The notes beneath the pieces are model-generated. The model saw nothing but the letters and a program-made list of their open reading frames with translations. It had not been told where the DNA came from and searched no databases. From a virus, in IMG/VR virus record IMGVR_UViG_3300005664_000121, positions 1-21,546 of that record: 21,546 nucleotides of DNA. One strand, given 5' to 3'. Of this stretch, positions 4,419 through 21,176 are shown in pieces; positions within the stretch are counted from its first letter, which is position 1; every line of letters begins with the position of its first letter. The translations under genes were made by a program, and so were the position numbers.

Positions 4419-4447
4419 AGTTTACCACACTAGTTCTTTCATGTCAA
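4419..4447 (-). promoter_or_regulatory. Sigma-70 type promoter inside the end of the polymerase gene
   Basis: Reading the minus strand, a perfect -35 TTGACA (4442-4447) is followed by a 17-base spacer and the -10 TAAACT (4419-4424, four of six consensus positions), with a TG one base before the -10 as in extended -10 promoters. The TAA of the -10 is the stop codon of the polymerase gene. It would drive the 57-residue gene, SSB-like gene and everything to the left. Confidence 0.6.
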
Positions 4448-5162
4448 GTTTGTTCATCCCGGTCTGGATTTCGCACGTTAAGGGCAAGCTAAAGGCATAG
4501 CCAAAAGACTCCTGACAAAGCCTTGGAACAGCCTCGACTGCTTGTTTCAGTAGCAGGGCAATTGCTTGTACATTCTGACTAGGACAATCTACTACAATGG
4601 AGTCATGCACCGTGCCAACCATGACAAATTCCAAACCGCTCTCTTGTAGCAGTCGATAAGCATAAATGCGGGCAAGCATAACAAGGTCTGCTCCGAAGCC
4701 TTGCACCGGGTAATTCTTAATTGTGGTAAGAGGCCAATCCCAGTCTCCACGCTTAAGAACTGGTTGAAAGGCGTAAAACCTGCCAGATGGGATGGTGATG
4801 TAGCCATTGCGTTTAACCTCAACTAATAGTTGGTCGTGCCATTTACGGATGCCTTGATACTTCTCATAGTAGCGGTCAATTACTCCTTGCCAGAAGAGTT
4901 CGGGTCGTCGGAATCCTTTAGTGTCCACTCCGGCAAAATCCGGGTCGTGAGCATAGCTGTATGCGCTTCCTCCATAGATGAGTCGGAATTTAAAAATCTT
5001 GGCAACCAGTCGTCCTGGTTTGCCGTCTCCAAGAGAAAAAGCTTTTCGGTTTGCATCATGTATATCTACCTTGTCGATAATTTCTTGTCGCAATATTGGG
5101 TCGCCGCTTAGTTCTGCAGCAACGACCACTTCCAGGCCCTTCACATCTACGTTCAAGAGCAT
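4422..5162 (-). CDS. DNA polymerase family A, C-terminal (palm/fingers) part of a split enzyme
   Basis: The 246-residue catalytic half of a family A (Pol I/T7-type) DNA polymerase. Motif A is at the extreme N-terminus (MLLNVDVKGLE, D6 and E11). Motif B is RLVAKIFKFRLIYGG, giving R51, K55, F59, Y63 and G64 in the canonical RxxxKxxxFxxxYG spacing. NYPVQGFGAD (Q154, G155) and motif C TVHDSIVVD (H186, D187, S188) follow. The residue after the catalytic Asp is Ser where Pol I has Glu. The exonuclease, thumb and TGR motif are missing here and encoded at 5540-6718, so neither product should polymerise alone. The ATG at 5162 comes one base after the nucleotidyltransferase stop, with GGGGAG 13 bases upstream, indicating coupled translation. 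The chain begins almost exactly at the beta strand that carries motif A. Confidence 0.9.
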   Translation of the reverse strand: MLLNVDVKGLEVVVAAELSGDPILRQEIIDKVDIHDANRKAFSLGDGKPGRLVAKIFKFRLIYGGSAYSYAHDPDFAGVDTKGFRRPELFWQGVIDRYYEKYQGIRKWHDQLLVEVKRNGYITIPSGRFYAFQPVLKRGDWDWPLTTIKNYPVQGFGADLVMLARIYAYRLLQESGLEFVMVGTVHDSIVVDCPSQNVQAIALLLKQAVEAVPRLCQESFGYAFSLPLTCEIQTGMNKLDMKELVW

Positions 5163-5163
5163 A

Positions 5164-5547
5164 TCAGTATAGTTTCTCCCCTTTAACTACAACCTCAAAC
5201 AATGCAATACGGTCTTCTTTCTTTAACAGATTTAATTTCTTTGCTAGCTCAGTAGCTGTCACCCACTTGCTAAACTGGTCTTGGTCGCTAACAATAATGT
5301 AGTTCACCAAGGCTTCATTAATTTTTTTCTTAGCAGAGAACCAGCTATTAACTTCGGGTTCACCATAAGTTTTATTGTCTTCTCCACCAATCTTCCAACT
5401 GGTTTCCCTTAGCTGCTTGTATGCTGCTTGTATATCCTCTACAAATAGCACAAAGTCTACATCAGTGGTGGTTACAGGTGGGTTGCAGATATACCTACTA
5501 CCTGTAGGCCATGCTGCTAGGTGAGCACACTCAATGTTGTTAAGCAT
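5164..5547 (-). CDS. Nucleotidyltransferase-fold protein lying between the polymerase halves
   Basis: A 127-residue protein with the minimal nucleotidyltransferase signature hG(G/S)x9-13-DhDh, here PTGSR followed by eleven residues and DVDFVLF (G16, S17, D30, D32 approximately). The C-terminal region LAKKLNLLKKEDRIALFEVV resembles small phage nucleotidyltransferases of unknown substrate. Family members transfer NMP from NTP to proteins, nucleic acids or small molecules; here the target is unknown. The ATG at 5547 overlaps the stop of the polymerase N-terminal gene (ATGCTTAA), and its stop is one base before the polymerase C-terminal ATG, so all three appear co-translated. A start at TTG 5571 is possible but would increase the overlap. 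Being set inside a polymerase is the striking feature. Confidence 0.65.
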   Translation of the reverse strand: MLNNIECAHLAAWPTGSRYICNPPVTTTDVDFVLFVEDIQAAYKQLRETSWKIGGEDNKTYGEPEVNSWFSAKKKINEALVNYIIVSDQDQFSKWVTATELAKKLNLLKKEDRIALFEVVVKGEKLY

Positions 5548-6718
5548 AGCGGCTGATGAAGAACTGATCAATTTCTGGAGGAATGTTTTGCATGTTTGGT
5601 GCAGAGCTACTAAGCCGACCTGTGACAGCTACGTTTTGGTTGTATTGTCCATGCACTAGGTTGTCTGTCCATTGGAACTTATCAAAGAGTTTGAAGATTG
5701 ATTCAAGCATCTCAACCACCTTTGTCTTCGCGCTACGTTCAAGAAGATGGGCCACAACTTGCTTGCCCTCTTTACCACCGCCGGAAAGCGAAGACAGCGT
5801 AGGTAAATCGGTTTGGTAATACCTTGTTGTTGCCTGCTGATCTCCCTTCGTCTTTTTAAGCTCAGTTCCCGAGAGAGGCTTAAAAAGCTGTGGGAAAGTA
5901 ACACATTCTTCGAACCACGAGTTCTTGATGTAAGACTCACCCTTCTTCGCACCAGATTTGTAGACGGCTGGTTCACTGATGGCCCAGTCAAAGACTAATG
6001 TGCCCCCGTAAAGAAAACAAGATAGATGGTCGCCACTATCCCAATTGAAGCTACCATGCTGGATAGGAGGAAGTCGTTTCGCAAGTTCCAGCTCAATTGC
6101 AGCCACTTGTTCTTTAAGTGTAGCCAAGTAAGGTGTAGCCGCAGCAGTGTCGAATAGTAGGCCACTACGCTCGATATGTGCCAGCACCTTAAGGTCTTCC
6201 CCCATGAGGTAGACCAAACGCTTTTGTTCATCTGTTAAGAGCCCCTGTTGAACCAGAAAGAGTTTTTCAGTTTGGATGACATCCCATTCATTATACTCCT
6301 GTAGAACAGGTAGAGGGATTTCAGTGGTTTGATAACCAGCATCCCAAAGTTCTTTAACGAGGTCTTTCTTTGTTTCAAGTCCATAGCGCTCCAGGCATTC
6401 GTTGAGGGATATAAATTGAGCTTTCTGCCCTGTGTAAACATGTTCGGCTAACTGGCAGTCCCATATTTTTACGTCATGAGGATATAAGTGAGAGCACCAG
6501 TGGTGGTCAAACTTAAAAGTAAACCCAATAAGAATAGTGCCAACTCTAACATGCTCCAAAACTGAACAGAAGTTAGGATCAGTGTAATACCCAAAGCGAA
6601 GACCGCTAGGAGAAGTATGAGCATATGAGACTACTTTGTTTCTGGGATCAAATGCGTGGCCCTTGTTGTAGGTTTGTGTCTCACAGTCCAGGCAAACGTA
6701 ATCTGTTGATAACTTCAT
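5540..6718 (-). CDS. DNA polymerase family A, N-terminal 3'-5' exonuclease and thumb part of a split enzyme
   Basis: A 392-residue protein carrying the proofreading exonuclease and the first part of the polymerase domain. Exo I is VCLDCET (D11, E13), Exo II is GFTFKFDHHW (D71) and Exo III is YNEWD (Y142, D146), all with catalytic residues present. Near the C-terminus comes TGRLSSSAPNMQNIP (about 366-380), the conserved strand and loop that precede motif A. The protein then stops after FFISRYA, where a complete enzyme would run directly into motif A. The ATG at 6718 is chosen over a TTG two codons upstream because it is ATG and still places Exo I near the N-terminus; no strong Shine-Dalgarno sequence is seen. 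The rest of the catalytic domain is at 4422-5162. Confidence 0.9.
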   Translation of the reverse strand: MKLSTDYVCLDCETQTYNKGHAFDPRNKVVSYAHTSPSGLRFGYYTDPNFCSVLEHVRVGTILIGFTFKFDHHWCSHLYPHDVKIWDCQLAEHVYTGQKAQFISLNECLERYGLETKKDLVKELWDAGYQTTEIPLPVLQEYNEWDVIQTEKLFLVQQGLLTDEQKRLVYLMGEDLKVLAHIERSGLLFDTAAATPYLATLKEQVAAIELELAKRLPPIQHGSFNWDSGDHLSCFLYGGTLVFDWAISEPAVYKSGAKKGESYIKNSWFEECVTFPQLFKPLSGTELKKTKGDQQATTRYYQTDLPTLSSLSGGGKEGKQVVAHLLERSAKTKVVEMLESIFKLFDKFQWTDNLVHGQYNQNVAVTGRLSSSAPNMQNIPPEIDQFFISRYA

Positions 6719-6771
6719 TTGCAAAGTTTACTAGAAATAAAAGTCAACCCATAGCATCTAATACTGTATAG

Positions 6772-8385: not shown

Positions 8386-8668
8386 GTTCTTCTTGAGGAA
8401 CCTGTGTCAACGGGCCGCAGACAATGGTTTGTCCTGCTTCGTTCATCACAAAGCCTCCATTATGATAACATGCCTGCAACAAAAAGTCAACTCCTTCTAC
8501 TTGTCCAAGCGTCCTACCGACAGTTTCCCCTTGATGATGGGCAAAGAGAGAGCATCCTATCAATATGGATAGGGCAAGAAGGCCCTTAGCAGGCCGATAC
8601 CAGCGTTTTCCAGACCACTTGGCTAGGGTGGTAGCCACAGCCCACTTTGTTTCGCTTAAACGGATCAT
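8360..8668 (-). CDS. Small single-pass membrane protein (102 aa)
   Basis: Unrecognised. A basic N-terminal region (to about residue 28) is followed by one hydrophobic segment, GLLALSILIGCSLFA (about 29-43). A hydrophilic C-terminal part contains two further cysteines (QACYHNGG and IVCGPL). The basic N-terminus suggests an N-in, C-out orientation in the inner membrane with the cysteines in the periplasm, which is inference. The ATG at 8668 forms an ATGA overlap with the thyX stop. The last codons carry the -35 and -10 of the helicase promoter. Confidence 0.65.
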   Translation of the reverse strand: MIRLSETKWAVATTLAKWSGKRWYRPAKGLLALSILIGCSLFAHHQGETVGRTLGQVEGVDFLLQACYHNGGFVMNEAGQTIVCGPLTQVPQEELDNFKKKV

Positions 8669-9345
8669 TTCATTAATGCCTTTAATGCGTTGGGAAAACG
8701 TGATAGAAGGCTATTATACATGGCCTGCACCACATCTCGTGTCTCTTCTTGTGTGTGAGGATCAAGACGTAGGTTACAAACCCGTGCCCAAGCAGCCAGG
8801 CTTCCTGTCCACCACCACTCTGTCATCATGTTTTGAGGCAATACCATACGGGCTTGTTCAGGAGCTACCCCACGATTAAGTAGGTCATTATATAGACCGA
8901 GACAATCCTCAATCACTTGCTCAGGATAAAGGCTTGTAATTAGTTGTGGGTCCACAGTACCATCACTTCCTTGTTTGGCATTCACTGGCCGACCCCTCCA
9001 GGAATCCGGGAAGAAAAATTCAGGTTCTTCATCTACATAACGACGAGATACCTCATTCCACACCAACCCAACTTGATGCTTCCCTAATTGTCGTGCTATG
9101 AAGATTGGGGCTTTAATTACAAAGGTAGCGTTGACATGTCCAAAGGGGGTCCAATGTCCATGAGAAGCCAAGTAGTTAATGAGTTTAACATCGCGTTCTG
9201 CAATGTTGCCAGGGACTCCCCCACATCCTTCTACCAGAGGCTTCCACTCACTTTCTTTGTGGAAACTCACACGAGCCGCATTAACAATATCAAGCTCTGT
9301 ACCATCTACTTTACGTAGAACAACATTACATTTTGAGATTTTCAT
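8665..9345 (-). CDS. thyX: Flavin-dependent thymidylate synthase
   Basis: A 226-residue ThyX, which makes dTMP from dUMP using FAD and methylenetetrahydrofolate. N-terminal AARVSFHKE and LINYLASHGHWTPFGH are typical. The ThyX motif region reads IARQLGKHQ followed by VGLVWNEVSRRYVDEEPEFF (R85, K89-H90-Q91, N97-E98, S100, R102), so the usual RHR is KHQ and one residue appears inserted before NE. I recall similar variants in other phage ThyX proteins. The C-terminal block ARMVLPQNMMTEWWWTGSLA and NLRLDPHTQEE is conserved. The ATG at 9345 has AAGGA five to six bases upstream. It would supply thymidine nucleotides for phage replication independently of host ThyA. Confidence 0.92.
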   Translation of the reverse strand: MKISKCNVVLRKVDGTELDIVNAARVSFHKESEWKPLVEGCGGVPGNIAERDVKLINYLASHGHWTPFGHVNATFVIKAPIFIARQLGKHQVGLVWNEVSRRYVDEEPEFFFPDSWRGRPVNAKQGSDGTVDPQLITSLYPEQVIEDCLGLYNDLLNRGVAPEQARMVLPQNMMTEWWWTGSLAAWARVCNLRLDPHTQEETRDVVQAMYNSLLSRFPNALKALMK

Positions 9346-10614: not shown

Positions 10615-10842
10615 TTAAGCCCTCGGCTTAGTCATTACAACAGTTAATGGGCCATTCTTGGTTTGGATGGTTTCCCGAAGGGTCTGTGATGAATCCAGCT
10701 TTGTAGCTTCCCCACGATAGAGCGCAATGCCCTTGGGATTAGTGATTTTCTTTACCTTAGAAATATCACCACCCCACCAACTACCACAGCATGAGCAGAA
10801 GGTAGCACCAGGAGTGTTCCAGGTTTCGTCCATGTCATACAT
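10615..10842 (-). CDS. Small protein with CxCC cluster (75 aa)
   Basis: Starts MYDMDETWNTPGATFCSCCG, then SWWGGDISKVKKITNPKG. The CSCCGSWWGG segment could be half of a metal site, but only one Cys cluster is present. The ATG at 10842 is preferred over more upstream starts because it has GGAAG six bases upstream and only an eight-base overlap with the previous gene. Function unknown. Confidence 0.6.
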   Translation of the reverse strand: MYDMDETWNTPGATFCSCCGSWWGGDISKVKKITNPKGIALYRGEATKLDSSQTLRETIQTKNGPLTVVMTKPRA

Positions 10843-11050
10843 CGTTGTCTTCCTCGAAGAGAGTGTCTTGTTCATTCCAATTGTCTTCATCATCGGGTGC
10901 CTCAAACGGGCTAAGGTCCGGTCGTCCCCTGGTGGGGATGTTCAACCCATCAAGACATTTGTTACATGTTTCCATAAACTCATTTGTCACGGCATGACGG
11001 AGGGTGCTTTCGTAATCCGAAAGCAGGCGGTTGCAGCAGTCACACCTCAT
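10835..11050 (-). CDS. Small zinc-ribbon phage protein (71 aa)
   Basis: Begins MRCDCCNRLLSDYESTLRHA and continues with ETCNKCLDGLNIPTRGRPDL, giving two C-x2-C pairs (C3/C6-type and CNKC) that should bind one zinc. The tail is strongly acidic (PDDEDNWNEQD, FEEDND). I recognise the pattern RCDCC-x-LSDYESTL...C-x2-CL from a family of small phage proteins with no assigned function. The ATG at 11050 forms an ATGA overlap with the GNAT-like gene stop. An acidic tail plus zinc ribbon fits a transcription or nuclease modulator, but that is speculation. Confidence 0.7.
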   Translation of the reverse strand: MRCDCCNRLLSDYESTLRHAVTNEFMETCNKCLDGLNIPTRGRPDLSPFEAPDDEDNWNEQDTLFEEDNDV

Positions 11051-12412: not shown

Positions 12413-12441
12413 ATTATACACTAAAATCTCTTTCGTGTCAA
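12413..12441 (-). promoter_or_regulatory. Perfect consensus sigma-70 promoter
   Basis: On the minus strand TTGACA (12436-12441) and TATAAT (12413-12418), both exact consensus hexamers, separated by 17 bases. The -35 lies in the last codons of the ATP-grasp gene and the stop codon falls three to five bases before the -10. The predicted start is near 12406, about 38 bases before the HNH ATG. It should be used efficiently by unmodified host RNA polymerase and would drive the HNH gene and the primase/thyX side. Confidence 0.85.
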
Positions 12442-13212
12442 GCCGTAATAATCAATAATTGCATTTGCATATGAGTCGCATGTCGAATTTATGATTCCTG
12501 GTCTACTGTTCACTTCGAGAACATAGCATTGATTGCGCTTCTCATTGTAGATAAGGTCCACTGCCCCATACTGGTAACCCAATGCTGCAACAGCACGAAT
12601 AGCGAGATCGGCAGCGCCATTAGGAGGATTAACCCCATCACGAGAATAGATATAACCGTTGTGCAAATTACGGATACGAGTGTCACGTTCATCTTCATTG
12701 AATTCGCGCTTCTTCTTCTTTTGTTGAATGTCAATTACGTCGCTGCCAAAAACGTGAAAGCGGTATTCGGCTTTCTTGGGAATGTACTCAGTGTAGAGCG
12801 GAGCGCGAGGTATGTGCCCTCCGCTTGCTGGTTCAAATTCAACAATTCCTCTTCCGTTAGTTGCATTAATAAGTGTACGGGCAAAAACTGTCTTGCCAAG
12901 CTCTCCGACATTCGCACTCGTGAGTGTAAATCTTGGGCAAGAAATTCCTTGTTCAGTGAACTTCTCAAACTGTTCCACCTTATTCAAAGGGCGTTGGGTG
13001 ACAAGAAAATGCTGGCGGACGCTCTGTGATCGTCCTTGCCGCAGGACGTTCCCCTTACGGGAAACAACTGCTCGTCGCGCAGGAAGAATCTTCGGAGAAG
13101 CACGTCGATAAACAGGGCTCTCCACCTTATCTACCAGAGCACGTTGAAGGGCTTTTGCAAACTTGCTGCCAACAGGGTTGACAACAATATCAAAGGGCTT
13201 AATTGAGGGCAT
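12421..13212 (-). CDS. ATP-grasp ligase (RimK-like fold)
   Basis: A 263-residue ATP-grasp enzyme, which activates a carboxylate as an acyl phosphate and joins it to an amine. Visible elements: FARTLINATNGRGIVEF (about 110-126; R112 and the Gly-rich loop), YTEYIPKKAEYRFHVFGSDV (E142, E149, R151), YGAVDLIY (D219) and CYVLEVNSRPGI (E233, N235), the last two supplying metal ligands. The first 75 residues are basic and not recognisable, so this is a short member with a reduced preATP-grasp domain. The ATG at 13212 lies 14 bases inside the end of the class II amidotransferase gene. As the last gene of the amidoligase cluster it would form the terminal or initiating peptide-like bond; the substrate is unknown. 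Confidence 0.85.
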   Translation of the reverse strand: MPSIKPFDIVVNPVGSKFAKALQRALVDKVESPVYRRASPKILPARRAVVSRKGNVLRQGRSQSVRQHFLVTQRPLNKVEQFEKFTEQGISCPRFTLTSANVGELGKTVFARTLINATNGRGIVEFEPASGGHIPRAPLYTEYIPKKAEYRFHVFGSDVIDIQQKKKKREFNEDERDTRIRNLHNGYIYSRDGVNPPNGAADLAIRAVAALGYQYGAVDLIYNEKRNQCYVLEVNSRPGIINSTCDSYANAIIDYYGLTRKRF

Positions 13213-14431
13213 ATTGGTCTATTGCTACCGGGTAGGGTTTCGGGTTGGAGATGAATGCTGTTGCTACAGCCGTCTTATCGTTGAACAGGTTACTACGAAT
13301 TGCTGTGACATACCCCTCCCACCAAGGTGTGGCAACCATCTCCATCACCTCAGTCTCAGTCTTGTTATACACAAAGAAATGGCACACAACCCTACCTGCC
13401 AATGATTCATTGGGGGCAAGGAAGGCACCATACACATGCCATGTACGGCAATTAGCAGATTTATTCGCCGGCTGGTAGTCCACCATCTCAAACATCTGCT
13501 TGCGATTGGCACCACAGATACCCGACACTTCTTCCACTGCCTTGAGAGCGTCTTCCCGAGTCATGTGGTACTCAGGACATTTAGCAATCAGTATCTCTGG
13601 GAGCAAGAGGTCTACCTGATGGTCCAAGGATTCCACATATCCACGACTCCGTGGAACATCTGGAGTGTTGTTTGTATGAGCGATGCCGAAGTTGTGGTAG
13701 GTTTTGACAACTTTGGGAAACATGGGTTCTACCTTCGTATCCACCCTGTCCCAATTATTTCCTTTAATGGTTAGAGCAACGTGCATGTAGGGTTCCAACA
13801 AGACTGGAAGACCATCCAGAGCTACATCCTGACGCTGACATGCCGCCTGGATAAAGGTGTTCTCACTGGCCCAATAGAGAGTACCTGCCTTTGATTTGGC
13901 AAGCCACAGAGGGCGTTCGTTGTTGCGAATCAAGTTGAGGGTGTGTGTCTCCGTGTTGAACCATGCCAGGGCATAGGCTGCCTGTATCTTGCCAAGAGCA
14001 TCTGCAAGAGTGGGCTCCTCGGCAATTATGTGTGCTAATGCCTCGGTGTCAACCTCGGTGTTCTTCACACCCTTATGACAGCCACGCCAAGTACCATTCT
14101 GCACCAAAACAATCTTGTCATCAATCCAGAATGGGTGGGCATTCTGGTCCACGATGTTACCACGAGTGGCAGCACGATTGTGCCCCACAGCAAACAATCC
14201 ATCACGGACAAGCTGATTCTTGAACGACTTGAATTCCTTGGTTCCCAAGAAATCCGTAGCTGTGGAGGCTTCTTTGTGTATTAGCACATTGCTATGCTTG
14301 TCCACCCCAAAAACCCCAGTTGAGTCAAATCCTCGCAACTGGTCGTAAAACAACATCTCCGTAAAAACATCGGCTTCCGTTTGGGTGAAGCCGTTGTTAC
14401 AGGAAGAAGCAACCCCAATAATTCCACACAT
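13199..14431 (-). CDS. Class II (Ntn-type) glutamine amidotransferase with unknown C-terminal domain
   Basis: A 410-residue protein whose first 200 or so residues form an N-terminal-nucleophile glutaminase like those of GlmS, PurF and AsnB. The key elements are: Cys2 directly after the initiator Met (MCGIIGVAS), LRGFDSTGV (about 32-40), VGHNRAATRG (84-91 region), VQNGTWRG (N112, G113) and EVDTEAL (D128). These residues hydrolyse glutamine and hold the oxyanion, releasing ammonia. Residues about 230-410 resemble no synthetase domain I know, so the ammonia acceptor must be another protein or this region is novel. The ATG at 14431 overlaps the upstream amidoligase stop as TGATG. It is probably a partner of the flanking amidoligase and ATP-grasp enzymes. 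Confidence 0.88.
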   Translation of the reverse strand: MCGIIGVASSCNNGFTQTEADVFTEMLFYDQLRGFDSTGVFGVDKHSNVLIHKEASTATDFLGTKEFKSFKNQLVRDGLFAVGHNRAATRGNIVDQNAHPFWIDDKIVLVQNGTWRGCHKGVKNTEVDTEALAHIIAEEPTLADALGKIQAAYALAWFNTETHTLNLIRNNERPLWLAKSKAGTLYWASENTFIQAACQRQDVALDGLPVLLEPYMHVALTIKGNNWDRVDTKVEPMFPKVVKTYHNFGIAHTNNTPDVPRSRGYVESLDHQVDLLLPEILIAKCPEYHMTREDALKAVEEVSGICGANRKQMFEMVDYQPANKSANCRTWHVYGAFLAPNESLAGRVVCHFFVYNKTETEVMEMVATPWWEGYVTAIRSNLFNDKTAVATAFISNPKPYPVAIDQYALN

Positions 14432-15435
14432 CAGAGAACCCTCGCTTGCACCACGTCATTGGCGTTTACATGAACATCATCGAAGATTTGAAACCCGGCC
14501 GGAACGTGGTCAAGCTGTGCCCGCACACGGTTTATTTCCGCCATTTGACGGTGTATCGCATCTATCTCGGCTCGGCCAAACATCCTCCCAACCTTCTTCA
14601 CCATAGGTGTATCACCATCAAGCAAACCATACTTCACATCCAAAACACCTTCTTCCAAATAACGCTCGTAATTAGGCATGTTGAAGAAGACGGATGCCTG
14701 CTCCTTGAAGATCACAGAGAGGATGGTTTGGTATTCCGAAGACACATTAAGCTGTGTAATCATGGCCTTGATGGCTTCCAGAGTGTGGGCCTGCACAAAG
14801 GTATAAATCTGATTAATCAGACGACACCATTGCAGGATGCGTGCCACATCACAATGCCCCGCCATATGCCGCCATTCTACAGTGCCTTGTGTGTACAAAG
14901 GCAACAGGTTGAGGGCAGTGTACTTCTGCCATGAGCGGAACTTGGTGTGGTCGTGATCGTCCTTCAACACCTTGTAGGTGAGGTTGGTTTGATGCCAGGG
15001 AACACAAAAGATATTCTTATCCCGGTCATCACCCACCCACATAAACAGCAGCTTTTCAAGCAACTGGTACACCAGACACAGGGATTGTATCTGTTCCCAC
15101 TGCAAAGGAAGGCAGTTGGTGTGCACATGGATACTCGTGCGCTCCGAATAATTATTGACATCAATCGGATTCTTTTTGAAGAACATCTCCAAGCAATAGG
15201 CAAGATTGCTGTACGTCATTGGAGCCGTAATGAATTCCATTCCGTTGTTGCGGAGAGAGCCATCCCGGACACAAGACATACCGGGCACCTTCCATGCCTC
15301 GGCATCACCCACGCCCTCAATCTCCAGCTCCACACCATACAACAGATGTGGTGTGCCCACAGGAAGGGGAAGGGCCTTTGGAAAGTTCTTGGGCAGAGGG
15401 TTATTCAGCCCAGACAGTTCATGTAATGTAGGCAT
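14431..15435 (-). CDS. Amidoligase_2-type (glutamine-synthetase-fold) ligase
   Basis: A 334-residue member of the amidoligase group related in fold to glutamine synthetase/GCS, expected to form an amide bond using ATP. Motifs in order: LLYGVELEIEG (E36, E38, E40), VRDGSLRNNGMEFITAPM (D58, R62, E67), SIHVHTN (H103, H105, N107), KYTALNLLPL (Y172, N176) and TVEWRHMAG (E187, R189, H190). These are the acidic metal-binding and Arg phosphate-binding positions of the family. The C-terminal 100 residues are helical and less conserved. The ATG at 15435 shares bases with the preceding stop (TAATG). Family knowledge comes from computational surveys that predicted roles in peptide tagging or cell-wall-like modification; the phage substrate is unknown. 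Confidence 0.83.
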   Translation of the reverse strand: MPTLHELSGLNNPLPKNFPKALPLPVGTPHLLYGVELEIEGVGDAEAWKVPGMSCVRDGSLRNNGMEFITAPMTYSNLAYCLEMFFKKNPIDVNNYSERTSIHVHTNCLPLQWEQIQSLCLVYQLLEKLLFMWVGDDRDKNIFCVPWHQTNLTYKVLKDDHDHTKFRSWQKYTALNLLPLYTQGTVEWRHMAGHCDVARILQWCRLINQIYTFVQAHTLEAIKAMITQLNVSSEYQTILSVIFKEQASVFFNMPNYERYLEEGVLDVKYGLLDGDTPMVKKVGRMFGRAEIDAIHRQMAEINRVRAQLDHVPAGFQIFDDVHVNANDVVQARVL

Positions 15436-16034
15436 TAGGAAACCTTTATCGGAAGGTTGTTACGACGGATGGTGTCAGACAGTTCTTGGGCAATCATAGG
15501 ATTACTAAGAATAATCTCATTGTTGTTGACCAACTCTCCCACAGGATGGTTGTAAAAGTACACCTTGTTTGCCACGAGGGCGAAGTACTGGCTAAGGACA
15601 AATCCCCGAAGAGTGCCATCTAGATAGCTTCGGAAGGACTTCCCCTGCATTATGGGATTAAACACATCCTCCAACAAGGCTAGGGAAAGGTGACCCTCAG
15701 TGAGCTTGCCAAGAGAATTGCTCTCCATAACCATTGTGTTCTTGTCAGAGATACCACGACAAAACTGCTTCGCAGGTATCCGTTGCAAAAACACAAGCCC
15801 ACTAGGGCCGTAAAACCATCCCCGAGTGATGGGAAGGAACTCGAACTGCACGTCAGTCCCAGCATAGGCAAAGAACTCACCCGTGCTGGTAACAAACACA
15901 ACCCGTTCTTGGTCCACCCTTCGGATGTAGCTCAACACCTTCTGCTTCTTTTCAGGGTGGAGAAACCACCCGTAAGACTGCGAATAGCGTTGAACAAAGT
16001 CGTCCCTGTTATACCGGGTAAGCGTGTCAAGCAT
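15435..16034 (-). CDS. Unknown protein embedded in the amidoligase operon (199 aa)
   Basis: I do not recognise a domain. It is a soluble, beta-rich-looking protein with RVVFVTSTGEFFAYAGTDVQ, then FEFLPITRGWFYGPSGLVFL, then RIPAKQFCRGISDKNTMVME, followed by a helical C-terminal third. It has no cysteine cluster and no membrane segment. It lies exactly between two amidoligases with TAATG overlaps on both sides, so it is almost certainly made with them. Likely roles are substrate carrier, modification target or specificity factor; this is inference from position. The ATG at 16034 is set by the overlap. Confidence 0.75.
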   Translation of the reverse strand: MLDTLTRYNRDDFVQRYSQSYGWFLHPEKKQKVLSYIRRVDQERVVFVTSTGEFFAYAGTDVQFEFLPITRGWFYGPSGLVFLQRIPAKQFCRGISDKNTMVMESNSLGKLTEGHLSLALLEDVFNPIMQGKSFRSYLDGTLRGFVLSQYFALVANKVYFYNHPVGELVNNNEIILSNPMIAQELSDTIRRNNLPIKVS

Positions 16035-16813
16035 TAAAACACCATAGGAATTGAGTACTTGTCAATCAAATGCCGTGCAGCGGCAGAATTATTCTTGTTA
16101 ATGGCATCCAGGATTGCTTGTTGATCTTCTTCGACGGGCAAGTGCTCTGCGTCCAGAGCAAGTCGAGTGTTCTGGTAAACCCAGGATACCAATTCAGGGC
16201 GGAAAATCCAGAAGTTGGAGAGGGTGCGATATTCCACACCATAAGCCTTCGGACGGAATGCCCCGGCCTTGCCATAAAGCTTCTTCCGCAAACTACCGCT
16301 GTCCATCAGTTGCGAGGGCACACCCAAGAACAAATCACACCGACGAATCAGTGCTTCCCGGTCAAGGTTGGTGGTGTCTGTACCAATGTGGACATGCCCA
16401 CCGCATGAGCGGAGTGTGGCATCAGCAGCCTTCGGGCGGGGGTTCATCTTGTGGGTCCACGCATTGAAATCGGGATCACACCCAAATTCCAACGCACGCG
16501 GGTCTTGCAACTGGTCTTCAGGGAAGAACGCAGCAGAGTCCTGGGAGAATGATAGACCCTGTTGCTGCACCATCTGCAACAAATGCCGCATTGCCAACGT
16601 GATGTTGTTAACCAAGTCTTCTGAAGACTGACTGGCTGGAATGTTGTATTCCAGAGCCACGTTGTCCTCTTGAACGGCAAAGCCGGGGCCAATGGGCAAC
16701 GCTTGTGGCTGCATCTTACTACCACCAATACGACCAACGGCAGAAATCAGACTACCAGAGATGCTGTCAACCAGGAAAATCTCAGGGTCAGCGCCAACGA
16801 AAAGAGGTTTCAT
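16034..16813 (-). CDS. COOH-NH2 ligase-type amidoligase
   Basis: A 259-residue amidoligase of the phage COOH-NH2 ligase type (glutamine-synthetase-like fold). Motifs in order: FVGADPEIFL (D9, E11), VQEDNVALEYNIP (E49, E55), RSCGGHVHIG (H140, H142), SLRKKLYGKAGAFRPKAYGV (R176, R187) and VEYRTLSNFWI (E194, R196). These are the positions expected to bind two metals and ATP. The start ATG at 16813 forms ATGA with the upstream stop and has AAGGA about five bases before it; the stop forms TAATG with the next gene. Together with the second amidoligase it implies two distinct ligation steps. I recall this family in phiEco32-like phages. Confidence 0.85.
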   Translation of the reverse strand: MKPLFVGADPEIFLVDSISGSLISAVGRIGGSKMQPQALPIGPGFAVQEDNVALEYNIPASQSSEDLVNNITLAMRHLLQMVQQQGLSFSQDSAAFFPEDQLQDPRALEFGCDPDFNAWTHKMNPRPKAADATLRSCGGHVHIGTDTTNLDREALIRRCDLFLGVPSQLMDSGSLRKKLYGKAGAFRPKAYGVEYRTLSNFWIFRPELVSWVYQNTRLALDAEHLPVEEDQQAILDAINKNNSAAARHLIDKYSIPMVF

Positions 16814-16989
16814 TTAATGTCCTTAATCAATTCAACTGCAACCAAAACACCGTCATGAAAAGTGGCTCGTATGTTGTCAGAGCCTGCCTTACAAACGGAC
16901 CACCAAGTATCTGATGCATGGGTTTCTGCAGGAGCGGAGGGAACTTTGTCCTCATTACTTGCTCTTGCAAAACGATATTCGATCTTCAT
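16810..16989 (-). CDS. Small hypothetical protein (59 aa)
   Basis: Begins MKIEYRFARASNEDKVPSAP, then THASDTWWSVCKAGSDNIRA and TFHDGVLVAVELIKDIK. Not recognised; looks like a small soluble alpha/beta protein. Its stop overlaps the amidoligase ATG (ATGA). The ATG at 16989 has no ribosome site at normal spacing, but a perfect AAGGAGG lies 25 bases upstream with a hairpin between. Confidence 0.65.
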   Translation of the reverse strand: MKIEYRFARASNEDKVPSAPAETHASDTWWSVCKAGSDNIRATFHDGVLVAVELIKDIK

Positions 16990-17022
16990 GGCGTTTTAAG
17001 CGTAAGTCTAAACGCCTCCTTA
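16990..17022 (-). promoter_or_regulatory. Distant Shine-Dalgarno with intervening hairpin
   Basis: The minus strand reads TAAGGAGG (17015-17022), the full complement of the 16S anti-SD, but the next ATG is 25 bases downstream. Between them, GGCGTTT (17010-17016) can pair with AAACGCC (16990-16996) across a 13-base loop. Folding would bring the ribosome site next to the ATG at 16989, as reported for phage T4 gene 38. The last two G of the SD overlap the longest form of the stem, so a slightly shorter stem is more likely in the translating state. Confidence 0.5.
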
Positions 17023-17256
17023 GGTTTTGATGATGTAAAGGGTGTTCCTGGAACTACCGGGATGCACATCATTCCGGCAGTCAATAGACTTGTAAACGAT
17101 GTTTTCTTTCGGGATGTTGTGTTTCTTCATTAAATCTTCTAATTGGGTAAACGAAGTTCCGTAGGAACAGATGAACAGGTGGTAGTCCCCCGGTGTAGGG
17201 GTGAACACGGCGGAGACCCGATAACCCTCTCGGGAAAGGTTCCATTGCCTAATCAT
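17020..17256 (-). CDS. Hypothetical protein (78 aa)
   Basis: Unrecognised. Starts MIRQWNLSREGYRVSAVFTP, then DYHLFICSYGTSFTQLEDLM and ends in a beta-prone RNTLYIIKT. A compact alpha/beta pattern, no metal motif. The ATG at 17256 forms ATGA with the upstream stop. The TAA stop begins the strong Shine-Dalgarno sequence of the next gene. Confidence 0.6.
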   Translation of the reverse strand: MIRQWNLSREGYRVSAVFTPTPGDYHLFICSYGTSFTQLEDLMKKHNIPKENIVYKSIDCRNDVHPGSSRNTLYIIKT

Positions 17257-17606
17257 ATCACCGGCTTCAGGCGAAGACCAAGAACATCATCACCAAGGGT
17301 GACGTAATCAACCACAGTATTTTCAATTGGTAGCACCTTGTCCTTATCTGGATTGAGCATCACAGTGATGCCAACATGAACACACTTCTCCAGTCCGGAA
17401 TGGTAGTCCCAACCTGCATATTTATATGGGGCTGGATTGTTGAAATCATCCATGCTGTAAGCCATACGAGCCCCGCAGCATCGACACAATTCCCACACCC
17501 ACCAACCAGCCCCCTTTTCCTTGTTTTGGAAGAAGGGATGCTTCTGGTCGTAGAACGCCCTGGTGGGAATGTTGGTATTGGCGAAAAATATGTCAGTAGA
17601 TGGCAC
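17253..17606 (-). CDS. Hypothetical protein with CxCC motif (117 aa)
   Basis: Unrecognised. Beginning MPSTDIFFANTNIPTRAFYD, then WWVWELCRCCGARMAYSM and CVHVGITVMLNPDKD; the CRCCG segment could be part of a metal site. The start is GTG at 17606: it has AGGAG seven bases upstream and overlaps the amidotransferase end by 14 bases, while the upstream in-frame extension is only the shadow of that gene. Its tight linkage to the class I amidotransferase suggests a partner role in the same pathway. Confidence 0.6.
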   Translation of the reverse strand: MPSTDIFFANTNIPTRAFYDQKHPFFQNKEKGAGWWVWELCRCCGARMAYSMDDFNNPAPYKYAGWDYHSGLEKCVHVGITVMLNPDKDKVLPIENTVVDYVTLGDDVLGLRLKPVI

Positions 17607-18237
17607 TAACTTTCTCCTGAAAAACTTGCTTGATGTACCCAGTTGCTGGTGTCTTGTCACTCTGCATCTCAGGATGCCATTGGATGGCAAGCCCATTAAC
17701 ATCATTAAACCACACCATTTCCGGTTCCTGTTGATGATCCACAGAAGTAGATTCATCAAAGTAAACCTTGCTCAACAACTGATCGGGAGGAACTTCACCC
17801 AAGATTTCATGCTTGGTGTTTCCCGGCACCATCATTTGATGGTGCAGGCTATTCACCACATATTCCTTTCCTTGTGGTGTCACCATCACATGATGCGGAC
17901 CAGCATGACCGGAAACATGTTGCATGAGGTAGCCACCGGCCAATGCACACAGCATTTGAGCACCACGACACACCCCAATGATGGGAATGCCGAGAGTCTT
18001 TGCCTTCTGCATCATGCCCCACTCAACTTGATCGCGGAATGAGGGTGGGGTGCTAGCACCGCTGAACTTTCCAGGTGATCGACCGTAATACTCCGGGGGA
18101 ATGTCTTGACCACCCCAGACCAAGAGCACGTCACCGTGCTTCAGGATGTCTGGATCATTCGACGCCTTATAACCATTAAAGACATTAAAGGTATCGAACG
18201 GGTAGAAGTCCTTGTAGTAAGCCGAGACAAGTCTCAT
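17593..18237 (-). CDS. Class I glutamine amidotransferase / gamma-glutamyl hydrolase-like (peptidase C26)
   Basis: A 214-residue class I (triad) glutaminase-fold enzyme. The nucleophile elbow is IGVCRGAQMLCALAGG (C90), and the catalytic His and Glu are in AIQWHPE (H188, E190), the complete Cys-His-Glu triad. VWGGQDIPPEYYG (41-53) and NSLHHQMM (about 129-136) are the patterns seen in PuuD/peptidase C26 enzymes, which cleave gamma-glutamyl amides, rather than in GuaA-type amidotransferases. It could therefore remove a gamma-glutamyl group or supply ammonia. The ATG at 18237 forms ATGA with the upstream stop; longer in-frame starts only read through the preceding gene. It begins the recognisable part of the amidoligase cluster. 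Confidence 0.85.
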   Translation of the reverse strand: MRLVSAYYKDFYPFDTFNVFNGYKASNDPDILKHGDVLLVWGGQDIPPEYYGRSPGKFSGASTPPSFRDQVEWGMMQKAKTLGIPIIGVCRGAQMLCALAGGYLMQHVSGHAGPHHVMVTPQGKEYVVNSLHHQMMVPGNTKHEILGEVPPDQLLSKVYFDESTSVDHQQEPEMVWFNDVNGLAIQWHPEMQSDKTPATGYIKQVFQEKVSAIY

Positions 18238-18560
18238 TCTGGCAACAGACCTTTCGAGGAGAATTTGGAGATGGTGGTATTCAAGGCAGCCTCCGGGATG
18301 GGGGTTTGGTATACCCATTTGGTTTCTGAAATGAGGACAATGCAGCCCGGCTTTTGATGGGTTATTAATGTCGCTAATGACTTGGCAGAATCTTCATCGT
18401 CTGCCCAATAGACAGGACAGGGGTCTTCTCCCGGACGTGTGATTTGCCCAACACTGGGGAAGGCGTGCCCATAAGCAATGAAATCTCGGCCAGTGACTGG
18501 GTGACGGAACATCATGTCCCGAACTCGCGGCGAGTGAAGTGTGATGCAAAAACGTTTCAT
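18234..18560 (-). CDS. Hypothetical protein (108 aa)
   Basis: Unrecognised. MKRFCITLHSPRVRDMMFRH at the start, then FIAYGHAFPSVGQITRPGED and a C-terminal KPGCIVLISETKWVYQTPIP. Mixed alpha/beta, soluble. ATG at 18560, overlapping the previous gene by four bases (ATGA); its stop forms ATGA with the class I amidotransferase start, so it may be the first gene of that operon. Confidence 0.6.
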   Translation of the reverse strand: MKRFCITLHSPRVRDMMFRHPVTGRDFIAYGHAFPSVGQITRPGEDPCPVYWADDEDSAKSLATLITHQKPGCIVLISETKWVYQTPIPEAALNTTISKFSSKGLLPE

Positions 18561-21092: not shown

Positions 21093-21176
21093 TGGTCGGC
21101 GTGGTGGGACTCGAACCCACAATCCCGAAGGCAACAAGGTTTAAGCTTGTTCTGTATCCCATTCCAGCACACGCCG
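21093..21176 (-). tRNA. tRNA-Leu, anticodon UAA
   Basis: A complete 84-base cloverleaf on the minus strand. Acceptor stem CGGCGTG pairs with CACGCCG over seven pairs. The D arm is CTG...CAG, and the anticodon stem ACAAG/CTTGT encloses the loop CTTAAAC (anticodon TAA). The long class II variable arm contains CCTTCGGG, the T arm is GTGGG-TTCGAGT-CCCAC, and discriminator A and an encoded CCA complete it. The long variable arm and the UAA anticodon identify leucine, decoding UUA. An extended -10 promoter lies 12 bases upstream. Confidence 0.93.

Follow-up and report, generated by a model that had tools for sequence, protein, structure and literature searches.

Comparative genomics predicted a phage cassette of amide-bond-forming enzymes (Iyer et al. 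2009, as cited by PMC5498523 and PMC6256558). In RIO-1-like phages, Duhaime et al. 2017 described it as a "peptidoglycan modification cassette" of seven genes, tracing the proposal to Iyer et al. and to Hardies et al. 2013 (phi-RIO-1) and listing phiEco32, 7-11, PA11, tf, MR299-2, LUZ24, PaP3 and CW02 as carriers (PMC5498523). The idea is repeated in the papers on phiM6 (PMC6256558) and U17 (PMC11945000), and the roles proposed are superinfection exclusion or preparation for lysis. The cassette genes are expressed immediately in HP1 (PMC7082346), and in PaP3 ORF32-48 are middle genes expressed with the replication genes (PMC4707531). For SU10, mass spectrometry detected the ATP-grasp, amidotransferase and YtfP proteins in a preparation that was polyethylene glycol-precipitated and not gradient-purified, so that the proteins are made but virion membership is not implied (PMC4281155). 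Among the papers found, drawn largely from outside the subscription literature, none establishes the product of the cassette, in agreement with an initial annotation of the DNA studied here, which had described comparable clusters as predicted but without an established product. Here we analyze a 21.5-kb linear virus record, IMG/VR IMGVR_UViG_3300005664_000121 (positions 1-21,546; hereafter the window), a fragment of an uncultured tailed phage that almost certainly carries a member of this amidoligase/ATP-grasp cassette. To the published picture we add a new reading of its class-I protein, an unnamed core protein with a predicted fold, a count of how often the gene order recurs, and evidence that disfavors a DNA product.

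The cassette occupies the minus strand between 12421 and 18318, in the order C26/class-I amidotransferase-fold protein, two small open reading frames (ORFs), COOH-NH2 ligase (PF14395), an unnamed gene that we call orfX, Amidoligase_2-type ligase, class-II glutamine amidotransferase and RimK-like ATP-grasp ligase (Table 1). The whole set, or most of it, is found in PaP3, PA11, Alcaligenes QDWS535, VpJYP1, phiM6 and CW02. The window shares with the known cassette the two ligases, the unnamed gene between them, the ATP-grasp enzyme and the class-II amidotransferase, and a class-I/C26 enzyme is also present in PA11, CW02, phiM6 and VpJYP1. The order in QDWS535 is that of the window, whereas PA11 and CW02 have the class-II gene ahead of that for the COOH-NH2 ligase. 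The window proteins, however, show only ~15-45% amino acid identity to those of the named phages, and the gamma-glutamyl cyclotransferase, which many but not all members of the cassette have, was not found in the 21.5-kb fragment. Comparison of DNA polymerases relates the window phage to Methylophilales phages MEP401/402, HMO-2011-type phages and Alcaligenes phage QDWS535, and a DNA-level search of a phage collection returned no near relative of the window.

All genes reported in the initial annotation are open on the minus strand where it had placed them, and the tight junctions that it described were confirmed: TAATG joins the COOH-NH2 ligase to orfX and orfX to the amidoligase, TGATG joins the amidoligase to the class-II gene, and the latter overlaps the ATP-grasp gene by 14 bases. 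It had counted five core genes, although the fifth, orfX, had been left undescribed. The C26 gene is separated from the COOH-NH2 ligase by 779 bases holding two poorly conserved ORFs; although its longest ORF extends to 18318, the most likely start is the ATG at 18237, which overlaps the stop of the upstream 108-aa gene as ATGA, so that the coupling reaches one gene further upstream. The nearest relative of the window is locus L021; as synonymous divergence (dS) between the two is saturated, codon-position counts alone were used. In the five genes from the COOH-NH2 ligase through the ATP-grasp ligase, substitutions pile up at third codon positions (89/65/158 differences by codon position in the PF14395 gene and 75/61/121 in orfX), a pattern that indicates constraint at the protein level. 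We then scored the order of the tracked genes in 84 viral_contigs loci (the window included) fetched around the PF14395 ligase, and exactly the order C26 - COOH-NH2 ligase - orfX - amidoligase - class II - ATP-grasp recurs in 51 of them. Given this recurrence and the excess of third-position substitutions, the cassette is not a chance assembly.

Comparable clusters do exist, as the initial annotation had said, but they are far commoner than it implied, with PF14395 relatives present in 317 phage records whose hosts differ widely (e.g., Pseudomonas, Escherichia, Rhizobium and Cellulophaga). One scan of the bacterial and archaeal genomes of 84,980 species found only five metagenome-bin contigs, one of which (L093) bears a phage-type polymerase, helicase and primase; from these data the cassette looks essentially phage-borne. 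A second layout, ATP-grasp - C26 - COOH-NH2 ligase - class II - amidoligase, occurs in L064, L065, L053, L091 and others, often with a second class-II-like gene, and orfX was not detected there. Across the loci, orfX is found without the cyclotransferase in 59 cases, the cyclotransferase without orfX in 10, and both in one; both are also present in PaP3, QDWS535, phiM6 and CW02.

Family matches and conserved residues assign the enzymes to their classes with high confidence. The predicted carboxylate-amine ligase matches PF14395 at 4e-12 and phrog_3815 at 2e-75, and its DPE, E55, H140/H142 and E194/R196 are invariant in relatives. The second ligase falls just under the Pfam cut-off for Amidoligase_2 (21.0 versus 22 bits) and matches phrog_7469 at 7e-30, with E36/E38/E40, H103/H105 and E187/R189 invariant. 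Its AlphaFold2 (AF2) model (predicted local distance difference test, pLDDT, 88.4) has YbdK and glutamine synthetases (GSs) as the closest solved structures (best E value 9e-6), so that the nearest solved fold is that of the YbdK/GCS2 gamma-glutamyl-cysteine ligases, although the template modeling score (TM-score) is low, at ~0.4, and identity is ~13%. The two GS-fold amidoligases of the initial annotation are thus borne out, the second with this reservation. Both adjoin the class-II and ATP-grasp genes. The class-II product scores 48.4 bits to GATase_6 in Pfam and is GlmS/PurF-like; R86, T89, N112, G113 and D128 are invariant, and Cys2 is present wherever the start is correctly read. The ATP-grasp protein lies just under the Pfam cut-off for RimK (20.5 versus 21 bits), matches phrog_2599 at 1e-45 and, as a profile, matches solved glutamate ligases including RimK structures (E value 3e-8), with D219, E233 and N235 invariant. 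Loss of metal- or nucleotide-binding residues, which would have spoken against an active pathway, was not seen: the catalytic positions are invariant in the alignments. In two loci (L005:7947 and L020:8639) the class-II frame extends upstream as far as an Ile codon, with Cys-Gly next (ICG), which suggests a rare AUN start that would keep the catalytic Cys2. The C-terminal half of the class-II protein (13199-13815, minus strand) is a ~200-aa domain of no recognized type, and the matching region in PaP3, PA11 and IME267 carries a CxxC...CxxC zinc-knuckle-like motif.

The initial annotation had counted both classes of glutamine amidotransferase. The class-II enzyme stands, and so does the Cys-His-Glu triad of the class-I protein (Cys117/His215/Glu217 in 241-aa numbering), which, like the HHQ and Q-HPE columns, is invariant across relatives; yet the best family of this protein is not an amidotransferase but Peptidase_C26 (67.8 bits, cut-off 20.5, versus 28.4 bits for GATase). 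The closest solved structures are Lin1909 (3fij), SpuA (7d4r, which we take to be this protein) and PuuD. SpuA and PuuD are gamma-glutamyl-polyamine hydrolases; the window protein shares with them the catalytic Cys, HPE and the CRGxQ motif, and differs in being embedded in a ligase cassette. The top NCBIfam model is a gamma-glutamyl-CDP-amidate hydrolase, with a score far under its cut-off. Because C26 outscores GATase and both the structures and the NCBIfam model point the same way, a gamma-glutamyl amide hydrolase is likelier than an ammonia-supplying amidotransferase. The set therefore reads better as one that makes and trims gamma-glutamyl or peptide bonds, and the C26 protein, combined with the cyclotransferase that its relatives PaP3, phiM6 and CW02 encode, would give the cassette a make-and-trim gamma-glutamyl theme.

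The orfX protein has no Pfam, NCBIfam or PHROG match of note, and as a single query it found no relatives in viral_contigs or the phage records; relatives were reached via the neighboring ligase and profile searches. In this way homologs were found in 67 of the fetched viral loci, and profiles tie orfX to the unnamed gene that occupies the equivalent position in PaP3, IME267 (phrog_4877), PA11 (phrog_11055) and others. The motif of orfX is RxPxRQxxRGIxxxN. A protein not used for training, Salinivibrio CW02 gp8, reaches 49 bits against the orfX profile, and its gene is located between the two ligases. In the phage records, the listed matches of the PA11 and PaP3 types mostly overlap or adjoin genes annotated as amidoligase or COOH-NH2 ligase, and some of these records have only hypothetical names or no annotation. 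The AF2 model is confident (pLDDT 88.6) and consists mainly of strands, with a few helices. No solved structure in the PDB matches orfX by sequence, and none does so significantly by fold, the best hits being tudor/SH3-like pieces and TraI. Nine viral proteins match the model significantly, and structural relatives are confined to phages; among the structural matches is the 190-aa CW02 protein H9D1D2, which we infer from its equal length to be gp8. By homology and position, orfX is a conserved core member of the cassette. It is tempting to speculate, although we find it doubtful, that orfX represents an undescribed, phage-only family with a PDB-unmatched fold that acts as a required partner of the amidoligases, be it a carrier, a substrate-recognition or activating subunit or a new enzyme, and that the gamma-glutamyl modification made by the cassette is not known from cells.

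Taken as a whole, the explanation that we favor, plausible if still short of probable, is that of the known cassette making and trimming gamma-glutamyl bonds, perhaps on a cell-wall precursor. In the cytoplasm, the three ligases would use ATP to convert carboxylates into activated acyl phosphates, to which they would couple amines or amino acids, yielding gamma-glutamyl or iso-peptide bonds; the class-II domain may amidate one carboxyl from glutamine or split a gamma-glutamyl amide, the C26 enzyme would strip gamma-glutamyl groups as trimming or deprotection, and orfX might hold the substrate or the partners. We consider a cytoplasmic precursor, modified by the cassette, the most likely product. 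That the precursor is soluble would suit the six cassette proteins, since none shows an obvious membrane segment or signal peptide in a simple hydropathy scan, and the target should be widespread because members of the ligase family are found in phages whose hosts are very diverse. The leading candidate for the acceptor, put forward tentatively, is a cell-wall peptide precursor such as UDP-N-acetylmuramic acid (UDP-MurNAc)-peptide; altering the wall during infection could then serve superinfection exclusion or lysis timing. Family and residue evidence, the recurring order, the tight junctions, the published cassette name and the immediate or middle expression in relatives speak for this explanation. 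Several points weigh against it. Among the papers found, no experiment ties the cassette to the wall, the wall role being their hypothesis, and the cassette set contains neither a muramyl-ligase domain nor any other that is specific to the wall. Proteins and cofactors are also substrates of RimK-like ligases, as small amines and thiols are of C26 and YbdK-type enzymes. Moreover, the TM-score of the amidoligase match is low, the fold of the PF14395 ligase is predicted from sequence, and a profile comparison of the two GS-type ligase families was uninformative, with no detectable mutual relation. A small conserved ORF that could serve as peptide substrate was sought inside the cassette, but the small ORFs that recur widely, among them one for a zinc-ribbon protein, are located outside the cassette, and a search of ten long or neighboring proteins for substrate-revealing fusions found none.

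An alternative is a small-molecule pathway modeled on Puu polyamine metabolism or on the protection and deprotection steps of butirosin, in which the ligases would glutamylate an amine or thiol (a polyamine, or a cysteine- or glutathione-like compound) and the C26 enzyme and the cyclotransferase of relatives would remove the glutamyl group. The best solved matches (YbdK, SpuA and PuuD) are all gamma-glutamyl enzymes, and both the top NCBIfam model of the C26 protein and the cyclotransferase of relatives would suit such a cycle, but a separate RimK-like ligase and a class-II amidotransferase would go unexplained and the window fragment lacks the cyclotransferase; we consider this pathway possible but rather unlikely. 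Somewhat less likely still is the modification of a host or phage protein in the style of ribosomal S6, with the RimK-like ligase and the amidoligases adding glutamate or other amino acids and the hydrolase editing them. While phrog_2599 carries the annotation ribosomal protein S6 glutaminyl transferase and the ATP-grasp profile matches RimK structures, the resemblance to RimK is distant and falls far short of the curated NCBIfam cut-offs; a small, acidic-tailed zinc-ribbon protein, encoded near the ATP-grasp gene in many relatives, might be the acceptor, but it has no conserved C-terminal residue and lies 1.4 kb away in the window. The initial annotation had also named a nucleobase group as a possible product, and the cassette does adjoin replication genes, with thyX near. 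Hypermodification of DNA bases, for example to a glutamylated thymine, is nevertheless very improbable, at least as a bulk modification, because restriction enzymes cut the DNA of cassette-bearing relatives normally: that of tf by RsaI, HpaI, EcoRV, SmaI and HaeIII, that of Delta by BamHI, and that of U17 by 11 of 16 enzymes. In addition, no hydroxymethylase, base kinase or glycosyltransferase was recognized among the window ORFs scanned, which were not all of them.

Table 1. Genes of the cassette and adjoining ORFs in the window
Feature	Position	Strand	Basis
108-aa unnamed protein	18234..18560	-	ATGA-coupled to C26 gene; homologs at same place in 31 loci; no family
Class-I amidotransferase-fold protein, Peptidase C26 type	17593..18237	-	Pfam, invariant triad, PDB matches, ATGA junction
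Unnamed ORF between C26 gene and COOH-NH2 ligase	17253..17759	-	Relative in L021 only; start uncertain, overlaps C26 gene
78-aa unnamed ORF	17020..17256	-	No relatives among fetched loci
COOH-NH2 ligase type 2 (PF14395), predicted carboxylate-amine ligase	16034..16813	-	Pfam, PHROG, invariant residues
orfX, unnamed 199-aa cassette core protein	15435..16034	-	Homologs, slot, AF2 model
Amidoligase_2-type GS-fold ligase	14431..15435	-	phrog_7469, invariant residues, AF2 model
Class-II (N-terminal nucleophile, Ntn) glutamine amidotransferase domain with Cys2, plus ~200-aa C-terminal domain	13199..14431	-	GATase_6, GlmS/PurF-like
RimK-like ATP-grasp ligase	12421..13212	-	phrog_2599, profile matches, invariant residues

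Elsewhere on the minus strand of the window, the zinc-ribbon protein (CxxC...CxxC, acidic tail) is encoded at 10835-11050, and its homologs, 50 ORFs in the fetched loci, are found at variable distances downstream of the ATP-grasp gene. The family-A DNA polymerase (4422-6724) is split into ORFs at 5540-6724 and 4422-5162, with a 135-aa ORF (5164-5571) between them. The same strand also encodes a ThyX thymidylate synthase (8665-9345), a calcineurin-like phosphoesterase (1294-2055), a DUF3310 protein (1073-1297) and a tRNA-Leu with anticodon TAA (21093-21176).

The cassette is carried by hundreds of phages of very different hosts, and no paper found reports what it makes. Recognizing orfX as a core part and the class-I protein as a probable gamma-glutamyl hydrolase would narrow the chemistry to gamma-glutamyl adducts on a soluble precursor, and the naming of orfX together with this class-I reading gives a testable gene set.

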